DNA of 64,000 bases from Janthinobacterium sp. SUN073 (GTDB taxonomy: Bacteria > Pseudomonadota > Gammaproteobacteria > Burkholderiales > Burkholderiaceae_D), in NCBI RefSeq assembly GCF_030397665.1, contig NZ_JAPUBT010000015.1, forward strand, positions 1 through 64,000, written 5' to 3'. The notes beneath the pieces were generated by a model. That model was not told where the DNA came from. It worked only from the letters and a program-made list of their open reading frames with translations, and searched no databases. Shown here in pieces: positions 34,803 through 43,715 of this stretch (its first letter is position 1; the number at the start of each line of letters is the position of its first letter). The position numbers were made by a program, and so were the translations under genes.

Positions 34803-37673
34803 TTAGCTGGCCAGCGCCAATAAATCGACCACTTCCAGGCCCGCCAGGTCTTGCGTCGTGTTGCCCGCAAACGCGGCGCGGCTCGGTTGGCCGTTTTTCA
34901 GCCAGGTGCGCGTGACGTCCTTGATCTGCGCCAGGGTGCAAGTCAGCACGCCGGTGCGGAACTGCTGGCGTACGGCTTCCGTCGTACCGCGCTGCTGCAT
35001 GTTCCACGCCGTCAGCGCTTCCGCGTACGGCGAGTGCGGCTTGTCGAGGCCCTTGATGACGCAGATGATGGCTTCTTCCACCTGCTCTTGCGAGAAGTCG
35101 CCGTCGAGGATTTGATCGAGCGTCGTGCCGAAGTCGGCGTACGTGCCGGCCAGGCGTGGATCGCGGTAGGAACTCAGGGTGAACGTGCCGGCGCCGGCTG
35201 CATAGCTGGCGCTGCCGCCATACGCGCCGCCTTTTTCGCGCAGGGCCGTATGCAGCACCTGATTCGTCATCAGTTCGGCGGCCACGGCCAGGGCGGCAGC
35301 GTCCGGATTGTGCACGCCCGGCACGGCCCAGGAAACGAAGCAATGGTTGATCTGGCTCGTCGCATGCAGGGCCGTGTTGGCCAGCGGCAATGCGACAGGT
35401 GCGACGTCAATGGCTGGTGCTGCCGCCTGCGTGCTGGCCGCCGGCAATTCCAGCAAACGGGCCAGGGCGATGCCGTCGTGCTCCAGGCCGGCGCACAGCA
35501 CGGTTGGTGACTGGGCGATGATGTGCGCGTGCAGGGTGTCGAGTTCGCGGGCGATTTCCTGCAAGCCTGCCGAGGTTTTGCTCAGCTGTTGCAAACGGCG
35601 GTAGAACGGCAGTGCGGCCGGGCCGCCGACGATGTCGTCGAAGCGGCGCGTGGGCGACAGGGGCGCTGCCGAGGCGAGCATGGCGTAGCGGTTGCCCGAT
35701 TCGGCCAGGCTGCTCAATTTGTCTTGCACCAGGCTTTCGATCAGGAAGGCAAGGCGCTCTTCTTCATCGAAGCGGGGCTTGGCGATCCACGCCGACAGCA
35801 CGGCGGCGATCGCCGCGTGTTCTTCGCGCAAGCCGCTGGCCGAGAACGAGAGTTCCACGCGCATGGCTTGCTGCGGGCGGGGAATGGCTTCCAGGCCGAT
35901 GTGGAACGACGGCACCATGCTCTGGCGCCAGGCGCTGGCGTCGTCGAACGACATGTCGCCCACGCCCAGTTCCGGCGCCAGGTCCGTGTACAGGCGCAGC
36001 CATGGCCATGACGCTTCCGGCAGGCTCGACACGTCGTACAGCACGTTGGCATAGCTGATGCCGTTCGAGGCGATACTGAACGCTACGGCGCCATCGATCG
36101 CCGGGGGAATCGGCAAGGCCGGGCGCGGCGCGGCGCTGACGTCGCCGGGGCGGATGCGCGGCAGCACTTCCGAATTCGATGGCAGTTGCTGATGCGCTTC
36201 CAGCGCGGCGGACTCGGCCACGATGTGCTCGCGCTCGGCATCCGTCAGCTGCGCTTGCAGGGCCGCCAGCTTGGCGTCTTCCTGGGCGGCGCGGTCCGTG
36301 AAGTAGGCGCTGTCGGGCACCACGTGCGTCGTCAGACGGGTCGGGTTGGCGATCAGCTCGCGCACCAGTTGCTTGAAGAATTCCGGATCTTCGATCTGCT
36401 GCTCCAGCGTTTCCAGGATCGCCGCATTGTCGAAGGCGTCCATGACGTCGCCGCCATACATGGCCAGCGGCAAGGCGTGCAGCAAGCGGCCCAGGCCATA
36501 CGGCATGCGGCCGCTGCTGATTTCACGCTGGCTGTATTTGATATCGCGCAAGGCGGCGTGCAGCACGGCGGCGGGAATGCCCTCTTCCGCCGTCTCTTCC
36601 AGCGCGGTCCAGATGCGCTGGTGCGCGTCGGCGATCTGTTCCTGCGTCAAACCTTCCATGCCGATATGGAACACCATCTGGCGGATGCCCGCGTCGCGGC
36701 CATTCATATCTGATGGGCGGCCATAGCCGGCCGATTCCATGGCGCGCATGACGGGCGCCGACGATTCACCCAGCAAGCCGTGCGACAGCAGATGCGCGTG
36801 GTAGTAGGCGATAGGGTCGCTCGACTCACCCATCAGCCAGGCGAATTGCAGGCCGAATTCATCGTCGCGCGCTTCCTGCGACGGAATTTTGACGATATTT
36901 TCCTGCGGCGCGGTCCACGCGGGTGCCAGCTGCGGCAAGCGGCGTTCGGAGAAACCGCTGAGTTTTGACAGTACGCGTTCGGCCACTTGTTCCTGCACGG
37001 CCGACGCTTCGATATTGCCGGCAGTCATGATCACGGCTTGCGACGGATGGTAGTGGCTGGCGTGGAATTCTTTCAGCATGTCATGCGTCAGCTCGGGGAT
37101 ATTGAGCGGATCGCCGCCCGATTCCACTTCATACGTTGTGCCCTTGAGCAAGGCGCTGGCGATGCCGCTGTCGAGCGCGCGCATGGGGCTGTTGAAAGCG
37201 CCCTTCATTTCATTGAAGACGATGCCCTGGTACACGAGTTTCTCGCCTTCGAACGCGTGGCGCCAGCCTTCCTGGCGGAAATTCAGGTAATCGAGGTTCG
37301 GAAAGAAGGCCGCGTCCAGGTAGACGTCGAGCAGGTTGAAGAAATCCTTGCGGTCGGTGCTGGCGAACGGGTACACGGTGCGGTCCGGATAGGTCATCGC
37401 ATTCATGAAGGTGGCCGTCGAGCGGCGCAGCATCGAGAAGAAGGGGTCGCGCACCGGGTAGCGCGACGAGCCGCACAGCGCCAGGTGTTCGAGGATGTGG
37501 GCGCGGCCGTCGCTTACTTCCGGCACAGTGGGAAAGGCCACCAGGAACACCATCTCAGCCTGCTCGGTATGCATGTGGATATGGCGCATGCCCGTTGCCG
37601 GCTCGACATATTGCTCGATGGTTGCCTGCAAGACTGGAATGAAGTTGCTGCTGACTTTTTCAAATGTGCTCAT
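34803..37673 (-). CDS. M16C metallopeptidase (insulinase/PreP family)
   Basis: 956 residues. The zinc site HILEH (inverted HxxEH motif, near residue 62) is intact in the first domain, followed by a second conserved Glu region. Four M16 domains over 950 residues are the PreP/Cym1 (M16C) architecture, which digests peptides in a closed chamber. No signal peptide is visible, so the protein is probably cytoplasmic. ATG 37673 gives MSTFEKVSSNFIPV; the frame extends to 37781 without conservation. Confidence 0.85.
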   Translation of the reverse strand: MSTFEKVSSNFIPVLQATIEQYVEPATGMRHIHMHTEQAEMVFLVAFPTVPEVSDGRAHILEHLALCGSSRYPVRDPFFSMLRRSTATFMNAMTYPDRTVYPFASTDRKDFFNLLDVYLDAAFFPNLDYLNFRQEGWRHAFEGEKLVYQGIVFNEMKGAFNSPMRALDSGIASALLKGTTYEVESGGDPLNIPELTHDMLKEFHASHYHPSQAVIMTAGNIEASAVQEQVAERVLSKLSGFSERRLPQLAPAWTAPQENIVKIPSQEARDDEFGLQFAWLMGESSDPIAYYHAHLLSHGLLGESSAPVMRAMESAGYGRPSDMNGRDAGIRQMVFHIGMEGLTQEQIADAHQRIWTALEETAEEGIPAAVLHAALRDIKYSQREISSGRMPYGLGRLLHALPLAMYGGDVMDAFDNAAILETLEQQIEDPEFFKQLVRELIANPTRLTTHVVPDSAYFTDRAAQEDAKLAALQAQLTDAEREHIVAESAALEAHQQLPSNSEVLPRIRPGDVSAAPRPALPIPPAIDGAVAFSIASNGISYANVLYDVSSLPEASWPWLRLYTDLAPELGVGDMSFDDASAWRQSMVPSFHIGLEAIPRPQQAMRVELSFSASGLREEHAAIAAVLSAWIAKPRFDEEERLAFLIESLVQDKLSSLAESGNRYAMLASAAPLSPTRRFDDIVGGPAALPFYRRLQQLSKTSAGLQEIARELDTLHAHIIAQSPTVLCAGLEHDGIALARLLELPAASTQAAAPAIDVAPVALPLANTALHATSQINHCFVSWAVPGVHNPDAAALAVAAELMTNQVLHTALREKGGAYGGSASYAAGAGTFTLSSYRDPRLAGTYADFGTTLDQILDGDFSQEQVEEAIICVIKGLDKPHSPYAEALTAWNMQQRGTTEAVRQQFRTGVLTCTLAQIKDVTRTWLKNGQPSRAAFAGNTTQDLAGLEVVDLLALAS

Positions 37674-37971
37674 GCGGTATGGGATCTCTTCAGTAGGTGA
37701 AACGGATAGTCGGTGGGGCTGCATCACAGGTGGGGGCAAAGTGGCGTAATGCCAGGGCTGGCCGCCAGGGCGGGGTGTCACTTTGATGCCTGCGTGAAGT
37801 TTTCCCTATTGTACTAGGAGTATTCGTGCGCCGCCGCCAAGGCCTTGCTGGCGGCCGGAAAAGCGACATTGTTGCAAAATTGATCATTTCCGGGTGGGTG
37901 GCGTCTGCGAATGAAAGCTTAGCGTACCATGCGCCTTTTCCCCCTTGCTGACTGAACCGAAGGCGCTTACC

Positions 37972-39384
37972 TTGTCCAGACTGTCCTTTCGCCAACTGTT
38001 ATTTGCCGCCTTCATTTTGACGACGGGCATCTTGACGGCCACCTCCGTGCAAGCCCTGCTGACCCTGGAACACCTGGCGCGGCTGGGGCGCGAGACGGCG
38101 GCGCAGGCGATTGCCCTGACGGAACAGTCGCAGCGCCTGTCCGAGCGCACCCTGGCCATGGAGCGCAGCGCGCGCCAGTTCCTCGTGCTCGATGATCCCG
38201 TGTTCCGCGAGCGTTATGCGGCGGCCCGCGACGAAGCGACGGCGGCGCTGCAAGTGCTGAACCGGGCCACGCCCGAGTTTGCCTCGCAGTTGGCCGACGA
38301 GTGGACGGCGCAGGCGCAAGCGGCGTGGGAAGTCTTGCAAGCGGGTAAGCGCCGCAAGCGCGATGGCCACGCCGTTGTGTACCGCGCGTTTGCCCGCATG
38401 ACGCAGATCAATGACAGCCTGGCGCGCGAAAGCAAGACGGAAATCGGCAGCCGCAACGACGCCCTGCTGGCCGAGCTGGAACGCCAGCGCCGCGTGCTCG
38501 GCGTGCTGGTGGGCGGCGCCGTGCTGCTGGCGGCCGTGCTGGCCACCTGCTTCGGCTTCTTGCTGTCGCGCCCGCTGCGCCGCATCGAGTCGGCTATCGA
38601 GCGCCTGGGCGAAAAGCGCTATGACCAGCGCATCGTCGTCGGTGGCCCGGCCGATACGCGTCGCCTGGGCCAGCAGCTGGACTGGCTGCGCCAGCGCCTG
38701 GCGGACCTCGATGCCGACAAGGAGCGCTTCCTGCGCCATATCTCGCATGAACTGAAGACGCCGCTGGCGGCCCTGCGCGAAGGCGTGGCCTTGCTGGAAG
38801 ACGAGGTGGCCGGCAAACTCAGCGATGGCCAGCGCGAAATCGCCGGCATCCTGCAGCAAAACACGGCCTCGCTGCAAAACCAGATCGAAGACTTGCTGCG
38901 CTACAATACTGCCGCCTTTGACGCCCAGCATCTGGCGCACAGCAAGGTCGACTTGCTGGTCTTGCTGCAAGATGTGGTGGCCGGGCAGCGCCTGCAATGG
39001 CTGGCGCGCCGTTTGACGGTCGAAGTGCGGGGCGAATCCTTGATCGTGCAGGCCGACCGCGACAAGCTGGCGACGGTGCTGGCGAATCTGCTGTCGAATG
39101 CCGTGCGCTTCAGTCCGGAAGGCGGCACCGTGCGCTTCAGCTTGTCCAGCGAAGGCCACCGCGTGTGCATCGACTGCATCGACGAGGGTGCCGGCGTGGC
39201 GCCCGAGGATGCCGCGCGCATTTTTGAACCGTTTTACCAGGGAGTGCGCCAAGCGGCCGGCGCGCGCAACGGCAATGGTATCGGCCTGTCCATCGTGCGC
39301 GAATATATCGCCGCCCACGATGGCAGCGTCACTCTTTTACCGCGCCAGGCTGGCGCGCATTTTCGGATAGAACTGCCCTTATGA
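37972..39384 (+). CDS. glrK: Sensor histidine kinase GlrK (QseE-like)
   Basis: About 470 residues. TM1 (about 7-27), a periplasmic helical domain, TM2 (about 185-205), HAMP, a HisKA domain with His259 in ISHELKTPL, and an HATPase domain (LANLLSNAVRFSPEGG, GNGIGLSIVREYIAAH). It phosphorylates GlrR. TTG 37972 has AAGGCG 8 bases upstream and is chosen; TTG 37945 is an alternative (no ATG is available). The gene is coupled by ATGA to the lipoprotein gene, in the same order as E. coli glrK-qseG-glrR. Confidence 0.88.
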   Translation: MSRLSFRQLLFAAFILTTGILTATSVQALLTLEHLARLGRETAAQAIALTEQSQRLSERTLAMERSARQFLVLDDPVFRERYAAARDEATAALQVLNRATPEFASQLADEWTAQAQAAWEVLQAGKRRKRDGHAVVYRAFARMTQINDSLARESKTEIGSRNDALLAELERQRRVLGVLVGGAVLLAAVLATCFGFLLSRPLRRIESAIERLGEKRYDQRIVVGGPADTRRLGQQLDWLRQRLADLDADKERFLRHISHELKTPLAALREGVALLEDEVAGKLSDGQREIAGILQQNTASLQNQIEDLLRYNTAAFDAQHLAHSKVDLLVLLQDVVAGQRLQWLARRLTVEVRGESLIVQADRDKLATVLANLLSNAVRFSPEGGTVRFSLSSEGHRVCIDCIDEGAGVAPEDAARIFEPFYQGVRQAAGARNGNGIGLSIVREYIAAHDGSVTLLPRQAGAHFRIELPL

Positions 39385-39919
39385 TGACGAGAACTTCTCT
39401 GGCCGGCATGGCCGCCTGCGCGCTGCTATTGGGCGCTTGCGCCGCCAAGCCTCCTATCCAGACGCCCGTGCTGGTGCAAACGCCGCCGCGCGTGGTGATG
39501 GTGATGGACCCCCAGCTGACCGAACTGCTGGCGTATCAAGGCGCCTTGCGCCTGATGACGCCGTCGGAACTGGTGAAAGCGCAGCTGGACCTGGCGAAGG
39601 CCGATCACGCGCCGTCCAACACCATCCGCCGCGCCATGCTGCAAGCGACCGTGCGCGGCCCCGGCGACCTGGCCCGCGCGCAAGCCTTGCTGGAACCGCT
39701 GGCCACAGCCACGGGCAAGGACGCGCAACTGCTGGCGCCGCTGGTGCAATTGCTCAGCAGCCAGTATGCGGAACTGCGCCGCCAGGAAGAGAGTATCGAC
39801 AAGCTCAATGCGCAGCTGCGCGACGCCCAGCGCCGCAACGACTTGCTCAATGAAAAACTCGAGGCGCTGAAAAACATCGAGCGCAGCTTGTCCGTGCGCC
39901 CTGCCGCGGGAGCGCCGAA

Positions 39920-39923
<4 letters not shown>
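39381..39923 (+). CDS. qseG: QseG-like lipoprotein of the GlrK/GlrR system
   Basis: 180 residues. A signal peptide ends in the lipobox LGAC, then a Pro-rich linker, helices and a C-terminal coiled coil (LRRQEESIDKLNAQLRDAQRRNDLLNEKLEALKN). In E. coli QseG is an outer membrane lipoprotein that contacts the GlrK sensor and enhances its kinase activity. Position between glrK and glrR and overlaps of four bases on both sides make the assignment strong despite little motif content. Confidence 0.8.
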
Positions 39924-41299
<1,376 letters not shown>

Positions 41300-41308
41300 A
41301 GCGTGAAT

Positions 41309-41321
41309 AATCAATGGCTTA
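41309..41321 (+). promoter_or_regulatory. IHF consensus match 1
   Basis: AATCAATGGCTTA fits WATCAA-N4-TTR fully, between the two GlrR-type sites. Such short consensus matches can occur by chance in AT-rich DNA, but the position is sensible for DNA bending. Confidence 0.5.
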
Positions 41322-41351
41322 CTGTTAAATATTGATTGTCTTGCCACAAGC

Positions 41352-41369
41352 TGTCGTCGTCAGGCGACA
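41352..41369. promoter_or_regulatory. GlrR-type upstream activator site 2
   Basis: TGTC-GTCGTCAGGC-GACA, again an exact TGTC-N10-GACA, 77 bases from site 1 and 94 bases upstream of the -24/-12 element. Confidence 0.8.
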
Positions 41370-41430
41370 AAAAGCCCCGATTTTCGGGCCAGATCCGGCG
41401 GAAACGTGTTGGAAAAATCGAGTTTGACTG

Positions 41431-41443
41431 TAAGTCGTTGATT
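41431..41443 (-). promoter_or_regulatory. IHF consensus match 2
   Basis: On the minus strand the sequence reads AATCAACGACTTA, a full WATCAA-N4-TTR match. It lies between activator site 2 and the sigma54 promoter, where a bend would bring GlrR to RNA polymerase. Confidence 0.55.
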
Positions 41444-41462
41444 TTGAATGCAATTTAAAAGC

Positions 41463-41478
41463 TGGCACGGTGCTTGCT
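41463..41478 (+). promoter_or_regulatory. Sigma54 (-24/-12) promoter
   Basis: TGGCACGGTGCTTGCT is a perfect match to the consensus TGGCACG-N4-TTGCW. Transcription would start near 41489, leaving about 66 bases of 5' leader before the BON gene. Confidence 0.88.
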
Positions 41479-41554
41479 GTATGGGTAGATGTGACGCTTC
41501 AACGTGTTGCTTTATCTAAGTAAGAAGCTTTTAACTTCATTGAGAGGAACTACC

Positions 41555-41917
41555 ATGCAAACATCGAAACTGTTCAATACCCTGGTCGCCGCTATCGTAC
41601 TGTCGGGCGCCTCGATCACCGCTTCGCATGCCGCTGAGTCCGCACCAAAAGCACAAGCTCCTGCTGACACTGTCGTGGCCGCCAACGCCGCCGCTGCCGT
41701 CCCTGATGAAACCATCACTTCCTCGGCCAAGGCCGCCCTGAGCGCCGATGCGCAAGCCGCTACCCTGCCAGTCAAGGTAGCAACCCAGCAAGGTGTGGTC
41801 GTCCTGTCGGGCGATGTCCCGAGCGCCGAAGCGGGTGACCGCGTCGTGCAGATCGTCGCTTCCGTGAGCGGCGTGAAAGAAATCAAGAACGAGCTGAAAG
41901 TCAAAGCCGCCGGTTAA
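41555..41917 (+). CDS. Secreted BON-domain protein (OsmY-like)
   Basis: 120 residues. A signal peptide (MQTSKLFNTLVAAIVLSGASITASHA) is followed by an Ala-rich linker and one BON domain (about 52-118; TLPVKVATQQGVVVLSGDVPS and VSGVKEIKNELKV). BON proteins such as OsmY act in the periplasm on membrane or protein stability. ATG 41555 follows GAGAGGAACTACC. It is preceded by a GlrR/IHF/sigma54 control region and followed by a strong terminator, so it is a single-gene unit likely induced by envelope stress through GlrK/GlrR. Confidence 0.85.
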   Translation: MQTSKLFNTLVAAIVLSGASITASHAAESAPKAQAPADTVVAANAAAAVPDETITSSAKAALSADAQAATLPVKVATQQGVVVLSGDVPSAEAGDRVVQIVASVSGVKEIKNELKVKAAG

Positions 41918-41946
41918 ACGCCCTCGCGCTGTACTTTACTCCGGGT

Positions 41947-41975
41947 TGCCCTGTCTGCGGACAGGGCATTTTTTT
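41947..41975 (+). terminator. Rho-independent terminator of the BON gene
   Basis: 9-bp perfect stem TGCCCTGTC / GACAGGGCA with loop TGCG (41956-41959), followed by seven T residues (41969-41975). It also faces the convergent lipoprotein gene. Confidence 0.9.
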
Positions 41976-41982
41976 GTCTATT

Positions 41983-42426
41983 TCAGTTGGTCTTGACAGT
42001 TTCGGCAGACGCTTGCGGGGGCGGCAGTGCCACCGGGGCTATGGCGATGTCCCGCATCTGGATTGTCGTCGTATTGGGATAATCAAAGCCAGCGCCGGTG
42101 TTCCGGTCGACAATGTAGCCTATGCCACCACCCAGTAGAATATTGCCCCATACGGCACCATTCGACTTAGATACCAGAGTCGAACTTCCAGACAGATTGC
42201 CTTTTTTGCAGTCGACGATCATGTCGCCGGTGCTCTTATGCACCATAACGCTGCCAGGGCTGACAACGAACCAGTTGCCCGCATCGTTGCTGAGATTGCA
42301 ACCAATGCCCGACACTTCCTTGCTCTCATGAATGGTTTGGATAGATACAGGCTGAAATTTTTCGCCCGCGACGGATGCGCAGCCAGTCAACGCCAGTGAT
42401 GCTAAAACAACAGATAATTTATACAT
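41983..42426 (-). CDS. Hypothetical lipoprotein
   Basis: 147 residues. The signal peptide ends in the lipobox LTGC (Cys about residue 16). A glycine-zipper-like segment (GAVWGNILLGGGIGYIVDRNTGAGFDYP) may insert in or contact a membrane. No function is known; similar proteins occur singly in many Gram-negatives. Lower GC than the neighbours. The 284 bases on its right are AT-rich and hold no gene that can be supported. Confidence 0.65.
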   Translation of the reverse strand: MYKLSVVLASLALTGCASVAGEKFQPVSIQTIHESKEVSGIGCNLSNDAGNWFVVSPGSVMVHKSTGDMIVDCKKGNLSGSSTLVSKSNGAVWGNILLGGGIGYIVDRNTGAGFDYPNTTTIQMRDIAIAPVALPPPQASAETVKTN

Positions 42427-42710
42427 GTTTACCCTAGGTGTAGTTGTAATTTTTAAAACAAACTAGTGTAAATTGGCATTGTTTATTTATCTATGAAAAT
42501 ATTTTAATTGTGGAAATTTTGTTTCTTTTATGATGAATCATTGGAAGTACACATCGGCTTCATAGCAAATCCACCTTCATTCTCGTCGCATGATTTTTAC
42601 CGATGAGGAATCCATATCAACGGTAGAATAGCCAGCACTGGCGCCGTTTCCGGCGCTTTTTGTCATCCATGGCGCAGTGTTGCAAGGCTGGGCCGCTACC
42701 AGGCTACCGC

Positions 42711-43715
42711 ATGTCTTCTTTTTCCCCCGCCGCCCTGCTGCGCAATCTGAAACCCGACAATTTCACCATCGCCCTGCTCGTCACCGTGGCGCTGGCCAGC
42801 TTCCTGCCCTGCACGGGCCAGACGGCCGTGGTCTTCGGTCACGTCACCACCGTCGCCATCGGCGCCCTGTTCTTCCTGCATGGCGCCAAGTTGTCGCGCG
42901 AAGCCGTGGTGGCCGGCGTCATGCACTGGCGCTTGCACTTGCTGGTGCTGGCCAGCACGTTCATCTTGTTTCCCCTGCTGGGCCTGGCCCTGCGGCCGCT
43001 GGCGCTGACTTTTCTCACGCCCGAGCTGTACGTGGGCATCCTGTTCCTGTGCGCCCTGCCGTCCACCGTGCAATCGTCGATCGCCTTGACCGCCATGGCG
43101 CGCGGCAATGTGCCGGCGGCCATCTGCAGCGCCTCGGCCTCGAATTTCATCGGCATTTTTCTTGCGCCCATCCTGGTCGGCTTGCTGGTGGCGAAAGGCG
43201 GGGCAAGCAAGTCGTCGGTGGACGCCGTGCTGTCCATCGTCATGCAACTGCTGCTGCCGTTCCTGGCCGGCCAGTTCCTGCGCCGCTGGATCGGCCGCTG
43301 GGTCGACCGCCATAAAGCCACCCTGAAATACGTCGACCAGGGTTCGATCTTGCTGGTGGTCTACACGGCCTTCAGCGAAGCCGTCAGCGAAGGCCTGTGG
43401 CATACGATTTCGGTGGAAACGCTGGTGGCGCTGGGCCTGTTCAGCATCTTGCTGCTGGCGCTGGTCCTGGGCCTGATGACGTTCATCAGCCGCCGCCTGG
43501 GTTTTAACAAGGAAGACGAGATCGCCATCGTCTTTTGCGGTTCGAAGAAAAGCCTGGCCAGCGGCGTACCCATGGCCAAGGTGCTGTTTGCCACCCACTC
43601 GCTGGGCATGGTGATTTTGCCGCTGATGCTGTTCCACCAGATTCAGCTGATGATCTGCGCCGTGATTGCGCAGCGCTATGCCCGGCGCGATGAGGAGGCG
43701 GTGGCGCGCGTCTAG
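42711..43715 (+). CDS. Bile acid:sodium symporter family protein (YfeH-like)
   Basis: 334 residues, nine to ten TM segments. ALPSTVQSSIALTAMARGNVPAAICSASASNFIGIFLAPIL and FCGSKKSLASGVPMAKVLF are the two discontinuous-helix motifs that bind sodium in the BASS/SBF family. The substrate in bacteria of this subgroup is not settled. ATG 42711 gives MSSFSPAALLRNL; a longer frame from 42660 is less likely. Confidence 0.85.
   Translation: MSSFSPAALLRNLKPDNFTIALLVTVALASFLPCTGQTAVVFGHVTTVAIGALFFLHGAKLSREAVVAGVMHWRLHLLVLASTFILFPLLGLALRPLALTFLTPELYVGILFLCALPSTVQSSIALTAMARGNVPAAICSASASNFIGIFLAPILVGLLVAKGGASKSSVDAVLSIVMQLLLPFLAGQFLRRWIGRWVDRHKATLKYVDQGSILLVVYTAFSEAVSEGLWHTISVETLVALGLFSILLLALVLGLMTFISRRLGFNKEDEIAIVFCGSKKSLASGVPMAKVLFATHSLGMVILPLMLFHQIQLMICAVIAQRYARRDEEAVARV

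Follow-up and report, generated by a model that had tools for sequence, protein, structure and literature searches.

The glrR-BON locus of Janthinobacterium sp. SUN073

The window (the whole 64,000-nucleotide stretch analysed here) contains a glrK-qseG-glrR operon whose three genes overlap one another, followed by a set of promoter elements and a short gene for a secreted BON-domain protein (Table 1). Among the 25 matches listed for the kinase, no NCBIfam model specific to this kinase scored above its cutoff. The QseG-like protein had no Pfam or NCBIfam match; compared with the sequence in the corresponding position of an Enterobacteriaceae locus (L040), its identity was weak (32%, E=1.6e-4). 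The regulator was assigned to GlrR/QseF by its receiver, sigma54 AAA+ and Fis-type HTH domains, all present according to Pfam, and by the gene order kinase, QseG-like lipoprotein, regulator. Its top NCBIfam model was PRK15115 GlrR with 593.5 bits, which is below the curated equivalog cutoff of 763; we would guess that this model is biased to enterobacterial sequences. The protein is 98% identical to GlrR of Janthinobacterium sp. TND4EL3, and in an alignment its recognition helix was near-identical to that of two Enterobacterales, with RNRTEFY.LL in common. The genome also contains rpoN.

Table 1 Features of the glrR-BON locus, with positions in the window.
Feature	Position	Strand	Remarks
glrK (qseE)-type histidine kinase	37945..39384	+	HAMP, HisKA, HATPase_c (Pfam); named from gene order; listed TTG start
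qseG-like lipoprotein	39381..39923	+	between kinase and regulator; LLGACA lipobox by eye
glrR (qseF) response regulator / sigma54 activator	39920..41299	+	stop codon 41297-41299
UAS1, TGTC-N10-GACA	41275..41292	.	exact; overlaps glrR 3' end
IHF-like site 1	41309..41321	+	exact match to WATCAANNNNTTR consensus; between UAS1 and UAS2
UAS2, TGTC-N10-GACA	41352..41369	.	exact; 77 bp after UAS1 and 111 bp before -24 box (start to start)
IHF-like site 2	41431..41443	-	exact match to WATCAANNNNTTR; centre 26 bp upstream of -24 box
sigma54 -24/-12 element, TGGCAC-N5-TTGCT	41463..41478	+	exact TGGCACGGTGCTTGCT
Predicted leader, 66 nt	41489..41554	+	start placed 12 bases after C of the -12 GC
Secreted single-BON-domain protein, 120 aa (predicted target)	41555..41917	+	Pfam BON E=1.9e-16; signal peptide by eye
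Intrinsic terminator of BON gene	41947..41975	+	hairpin 41947-41968 plus T-run; fold z=-4.05

The secreted BON protein and the terminator had been proposed from the sequence alone, and both were recovered. OsmY has two BON domains. The window protein resembles OsmY (PDB match 8rjx, E=1.2e-14) and DolP (YraP; PDB match 7a2d, E=8.2e-9) in its BON domain, but it has one such domain and, by eye, no lipobox, whereas DolP has two BON domains according to a paper title. With one BON stretch and 52.9 of the 174 bits of the NCBIfam cutoff, it does not classify as OsmY, and it scored below the NCBIfam DolP cutoff as well. Judging by gene order, the BON gene is monocistronic because a convergent open frame (41983-42426, minus strand) comes next. 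The predicted start gives the 66-base leader of the sequence-only reading, and the 12-base rule behind it lands exactly where the GlmY model begins in two enterobacterial control loci (L036 and L040). At its predicted 5' end the BON mRNA has a stem-loop (41491-41510, GTRACGCT...GTGTTGC) that most of the genus keeps, though the loop itself varies; it may perhaps act as an mRNA stabiliser. We found no sigma70-like promoter upstream of the BON gene and no + strand terminator-like site between glrR and the promoter. Just after UAS2, a terminator-like hairpin with a T-run (41373-41390) reads on the minus strand.

Promoter elements and their frequency by chance

The sequence-only reading had placed two exact TGTC-N10-GACA sites, two IHF consensus matches and a perfect sigma54 -24/-12 element right after the operon, and all five were found there. 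The two UAS are the sole two in the 64 kb on both strands, and the two IHF matches are likewise the sole ones in the window. As in a GlrR/IHF/sigma54 promoter, the UAS lie upstream of the sigma54 element and the IHF sites, by consensus match only, between UAS and promoter. In close relatives (L016 and L112-L114), the stop codon TAG of glrR lies inside UAS1; the window has GAG at this codon and the frame continues to a TAA 12 bases later.

Shuffled versions of the window contained 0.59 UAS on average and 10 of 100 reached two, so the UAS count by itself is weak evidence; two IHF consensus matches were reached in 7 of 100 shuffles. A search for the sigma54 element at ≤1 mismatch gave one further match in the window, an inexact one. 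The 6.45 Mb genome has 105 UAS sites, against 85 for the reversed pattern, and 378 copies of TGGCNC-N5-TTGC on both strands. A single UAS is therefore not rare, and the evidence lies in arrangement and conservation. A UAS with TGGCNC-N5-TTGC 61-121 bp downstream occurred at one place in the genome, the locus at 41275-41478, and no exact pair was found at 31-91 bp. The window locus is thus the sole exact UAS-to-sigma54 pairing at gaps of 31-121 bp, and no further GlrR target was found in the SUN073 genome at exact consensus within these gaps.

Among 31 genomes of the genus, one UAS with a sigma54 element at 31-91 bp was found in 18 places in 12 genomes, nine of which are glrR-BON loci. The other nine were taken as chance matches, having no GlrR in the surrounding 3 kb and lying inside open frames of >150 codons; the open-frame criterion is weak, since four of the nine glrR-BON places also lie under frames of >150 codons. 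The exact double UAS with TGGCAC-N5-TTGC matched 15 of 399 genomes of the order Burkholderiales, once in each (reversed control, 0); 14 of the 15 matches follow a glrR at a distance of at most about 110 bp, the exception being L104.

Conservation of the promoter behind glrR in Burkholderiales

GlrR was detected at E≤1e-140 in at least 152 of the 399 order genomes (best four candidates scored per genome), and 144 of the 152 were inspected. After loci with duplicate downstream sequence and those shorter than 250 bp were dropped, 163 distinct loci, a few of them from named betaproteobacteria, were scanned over a stretch beginning 30 bp upstream of the glrR stop and ending 450 bp beyond it. Of the 163 loci, 85 had an exact UAS (one each in the reversed and the shuffled control) and 44 had at least two (none in either control). 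A sigma54 element at ≤1 mismatch was present in 114, compared with 6 reversed and, in a single run, 2 shuffled. A lone UAS at ≤1 mismatch was found in 118 loci but is common in shuffled sequence too (reversed 13, shuffled 28), so only pairings are informative. A UAS followed by a sigma54 element, each at ≤1 mismatch, occurred in 99 of 163 loci and in none of the reversed or shuffled controls. The control within glrR coding sequence was short for 110 loci and was redone on the 53 full-length ones, of which 49 had the pair behind glrR and none had it within the coding region. The pair was found in 1 of 156 loci at 900-1380 bp further downstream, and 46 other NtrC-type activators of various phyla (37-44% identity) gave no exact UAS and no pair.

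Over 700 bp, 102 loci qualified as promoter-bearing, and in 32 of these the first UAS overlaps the end of glrR, as in the window. Related genomes were searched for site pairs and glrR-BON synteny, as the sequence-only reading had proposed: the promoter lies just downstream of glrR in 89 of the 144 inspected GlrR genomes and in 32 of 37 families, and a BON gene follows in 9/9 glrR-linked matches of the window's genus. A recognised promoter was absent in 55 of the 144. No promoter was called in 61 loci; 20 of these encode a cargo-like protein downstream (in 17 cases on the right strand), which probably means that weaker sites were missed. The promoter rate by GlrR identity, measured over the available part and often over the last ~65 residues only, was 1/4 in the 40s, 38/78 in the 50s, 30/40 in the 60s, 27/35 in the 70s and 6/6 above. 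The locus had been read as a possible GlrR regulon member in Oxalobacteraceae. Promoter and glrR-BON synteny are indeed conserved, but the promoter arrangement extends over the order with several target genes, and an Oxalobacteraceae-only reading was dropped. In the sample of the window's own family, GlrR was present at E≤1e-120 in 10 of 79 genomes. Across the searches of the order and the class, seven genomes (G092, G030, G083, G118, G342, G513 and G522) have two GlrR-like regulators above threshold.

Spacing and helical phasing of the elements

An alignment of 18 promoters (of 20 sequences tried) showed conserved blocks upstream of the leader at the UAS halves, the IHF core, the -24 and the -12, with the -24/-12 columns conserved as much as the UAS columns. 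IHF site 2 forms such a block, and conservation extends to the BON frame and its start region. The two UAS are, start to start, 65-67 bp apart in 54 of 75 loci and 77-78 bp apart in seven; in the window the distance is 77 bp. Distances from the last UAS to the sigma54 element cluster at 70-72, 81-84, 91-95, 101-106 and 111-113 bp (111 bp in the window), with some outliers up to 193 bp. With all loci included and kinship ignored, the Rayleigh statistic was highest for a period of 10.5 bp, with R=0.61 and a p of about 4e-17, while a period of 12 bp gave p=0.10; with one random locus per family (32 families), 10.5 bp remained the best period (median R 0.65, p 1.6e-6). Compared with the window, several species of the genus have an interval about 11 bp shorter between the UAS and one 10 bp shorter between UAS2 and the sigma54 element, in each case about one helical turn. 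A DNA-looping activator tolerates the gain or loss of whole helical turns.

The IHF consensus is degenerate, and IHF-like sites were counted at ≤1 mismatch. They occur between UAS and sigma54 element in 72 of 102 loci, against 10 in reversed and 6 in shuffled sequence, and between the two UAS in 53 of 75 beta loci (reversed 6/75). A site with the offset and strand of IHF site 2 is present in 36 of the 102 beta loci.

Genes behind the promoter

First frames behind 105 promoters, 102 of them from the order, were chosen by a score of length, start and ribosome site, and they fell into clusters of BON/EF-hand (40), glycine-zipper-like (21), OpgH (12) and OpgG (5) proteins and smaller groups (27); the 'other' cargo includes likely wrong picks. 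As the clusters differ behind the same promoter, the promoter has been kept and the envelope gene exchanged. Pfam detected BON in 36 and an EF-hand model in 10 members of the BON/EF-hand cluster, and its alignment, read by eye, contained seven EF-hand-BON fusions and four EF-hand-only proteins. The fusions join both domain types in one small secreted protein (L024, L105, L159, L169, L172, L182 and L196), which suggests that the two share a common role. In the glycine-zipper cluster, nine members match Rick_17kDa_Anti and nine Gly-zipper_Omp (E≤0.01), two sets that may overlap. MdoG matches five members and glycosyltransferase family 2 matches twelve; one full-length OpgH-type example is above an MdoH cutoff. 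In a few loci, for example L280, L110 and L103, no frame that follows the promoter is convincing.

Proposed regulation and alternative explanations

We consider it very probable, judging from the sequence, that a GlrR-dependent sigma54 promoter drives a single envelope gene adjoining its own regulator, and phosphorylated GlrR with IHF is the most likely activator of this transcription. The predicted promoter is supported by its site content, its uniqueness in the genome, the conservation of its footprint, helical phasing, the recognition helix and glrR-BON synteny, and the GlrR/IHF/sigma54 logic first proposed for the BON gene agrees with all of these. In the proposed mechanism, a putative signal would reach the outer-membrane lipoprotein QseG, which has been reported to activate GlrK in Salmonella and E. 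coli and may do so here. Phosphorylated GlrR would bind both TGTC-N10-GACA sites from the same side of the helix. IHF would occupy one site between the UAS and another centred 26 bp upstream of the -24 box and bend the DNA, so that GlrR could contact sigma54-RNA polymerase at 41463-41478. Transcription from near 41489 would then yield a monocistronic BON mRNA ending at 41947-41975, and its product would act in the periplasm in envelope maintenance, like BON proteins of the OsmY/DolP type.

The best-known GlrR target is an sRNA, and the main product of the promoter could, as for glmY, be an sRNA from the leader or from processed BON mRNA, with the BON frame secondary. The sequence-only reading had pointed to the 66-base leader in this respect. 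Its 5' stem-loop, conserved in the genus, bears a weak resemblance to a terminator, and the few loci without a convincing frame would also fit. An sRNA in the leader found no support, however: Rfam gave no match in 37500-43000 up to E=5, the leader folds no better than its shuffles (z=0.14), and the GlmY_tke1 covariance model, which matched its E. coli positive control, matched neither the window locus nor any of the 31 relatives' genomes. Since the BON frame and its start region are moreover conserved, a strong terminator follows the gene and BON is present in most of the commonest downstream cluster, we regard an sRNA as the main product as unlikely.

The sites could also be mainly autoregulatory or a remnant at the end of glrR, with the BON gene transcribed by readthrough or from another promoter, in keeping with the overlap of UAS1 with glrR and with the result that no + strand terminator-like site was found between glrR and the promoter. 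Against this, the window's only two exact UAS lie behind glrK and none upstream of it, the order UAS, IHF, sigma54, gene and the phased spacing point downstream, and the -24/-12 is conserved like the UAS; this explanation seems to us more doubtful still. Single motifs are common enough in the genome for a chance co-occurrence of degenerate motifs to be considered, but the pair counts behind glrR against empty or nearly empty controls (99/163 loci; 0 reversed, 0 shuffled; 0/53 coding, 1/156 further downstream, 0/46 other activators) and the position of the exact double-UAS matches make it extremely improbable, and we exclude it because of conservation. A GlrR-dependent promoter of the BON gene thus remains our preferred reading.

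Relation to glmY and a possible ancestral arrangement

The UAS consensus and the control of glmY by IHF and sigma54 have been described (PMC6075780, PMC8745638 and PMC4987338, as excerpted). The window promoter resembles that of glmY in Enterobacterales, as these excerpts present it, in its TGTC-N10-GACA sites, IHF, sigma54, a target adjoining qseEGF and the GlrR recognition helix. It differs in that the target lies downstream of glrR and not upstream of glrK, and encodes a secreted protein instead of an sRNA; E. coli glmY has been described with three UAS, the BON gene has two, and a sigma70 promoter overlapping that of the BON gene was not found. Each of three enterobacterial positive-control loci carries UAS upstream of glrK together with a GlmY match; the sigma54 element was recognised in two.

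GlrR was found at E≤1e-140 in at least 77 of 340 genomes of Gammaproteobacteria (best four candidates scored per genome). In a set made from 40 of 79 match rows, the promoter lies downstream of glrR in 14 of 40 loci and upstream of glrK in 2 of 38 (reversed 0 and 0), and on neither side in 24. Six of the 14 downstream promoters precede small EF-hand proteins confirmed by Pfam. One gamma locus (L284) has a double-UAS promoter and an EF-hand gene upstream of glrK-glrR, the position of glmY in Enterobacterales, and no GlmY match in Rfam. With looser windows, 21 GlrR loci of gamma and other groups gave three downstream promoters, five upstream and 13 with neither.

These observations led us to a broader reading, for and against which we see the chances as evenly balanced, that GlrR was ancestrally a regulator of one neighbour. 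An enhancer-IHF-sigma54 cassette beside qseEGF would have been kept across beta- and gammaproteobacteria while its cargo was exchanged (EF-hand, EF-hand-BON, BON, glycine-zipper, OpgG/OpgH), with glmY as one cargo on the upstream side. If so, GlrR would act as a general regulator of the envelope, its output rewired through the exchange of cargo with the promoter retained.

In E. coli, the rpoE locus is distant from glrR. The sigma54-dependent rpoE promoter is likewise a QseF-activated envelope target (PMC6075780, as excerpted), but rpoE encodes a sigma factor and the window target a BON protein. Three-gene qseEGF systems, the same operon as here, are widespread in the beta and gamma classes of Pseudomonadota (PMC12691602); the excerpted text labels some flanking genes as non-conserved in a figure legend and mentions no promoter or target downstream of qseF. 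According to the respective excerpts, QseE/QseF also occur in delta-proteobacteria and Nitrospira (PMC8895600), and QseF-like activators are listed in a study arguing that sigma54 controls the exterior (PMC3162934), the excerpt of which does not mention BON, mdoG, osmY or yfhA. Among the matches listed from the open-licence literature, titles and abstract openings did not describe a GlrR/QseF promoter before BON, OsmY or opgG genes or in betaproteobacteria, and the GlrR/QseEF work seen in such excerpts concerns mostly enterobacteria (glmY, rpoE and virulence). The predicted promoter, if real, would provide a direct and easily assayed GlrR target in many non-enterobacterial families, connect the signal sensed by QseG with BON proteins and with osmoregulated periplasmic glucans, and allow regulon rewiring to be studied in a natural series in which one promoter precedes exchanged target genes.

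Three gamma genomes (L285, L286 and L287) have double-UAS and sigma54 promoters with no GlrR ortholog within 10-17 kb; in L285 there is a 31% match to the receiver domain only. The sequences behind these promoters comprise a His/Asp-rich secreted repeat protein, a stretch with no clear frame and a protein that by eye is acyltransferase-like, and the promoter without a clear frame possibly belongs to an sRNA gene.
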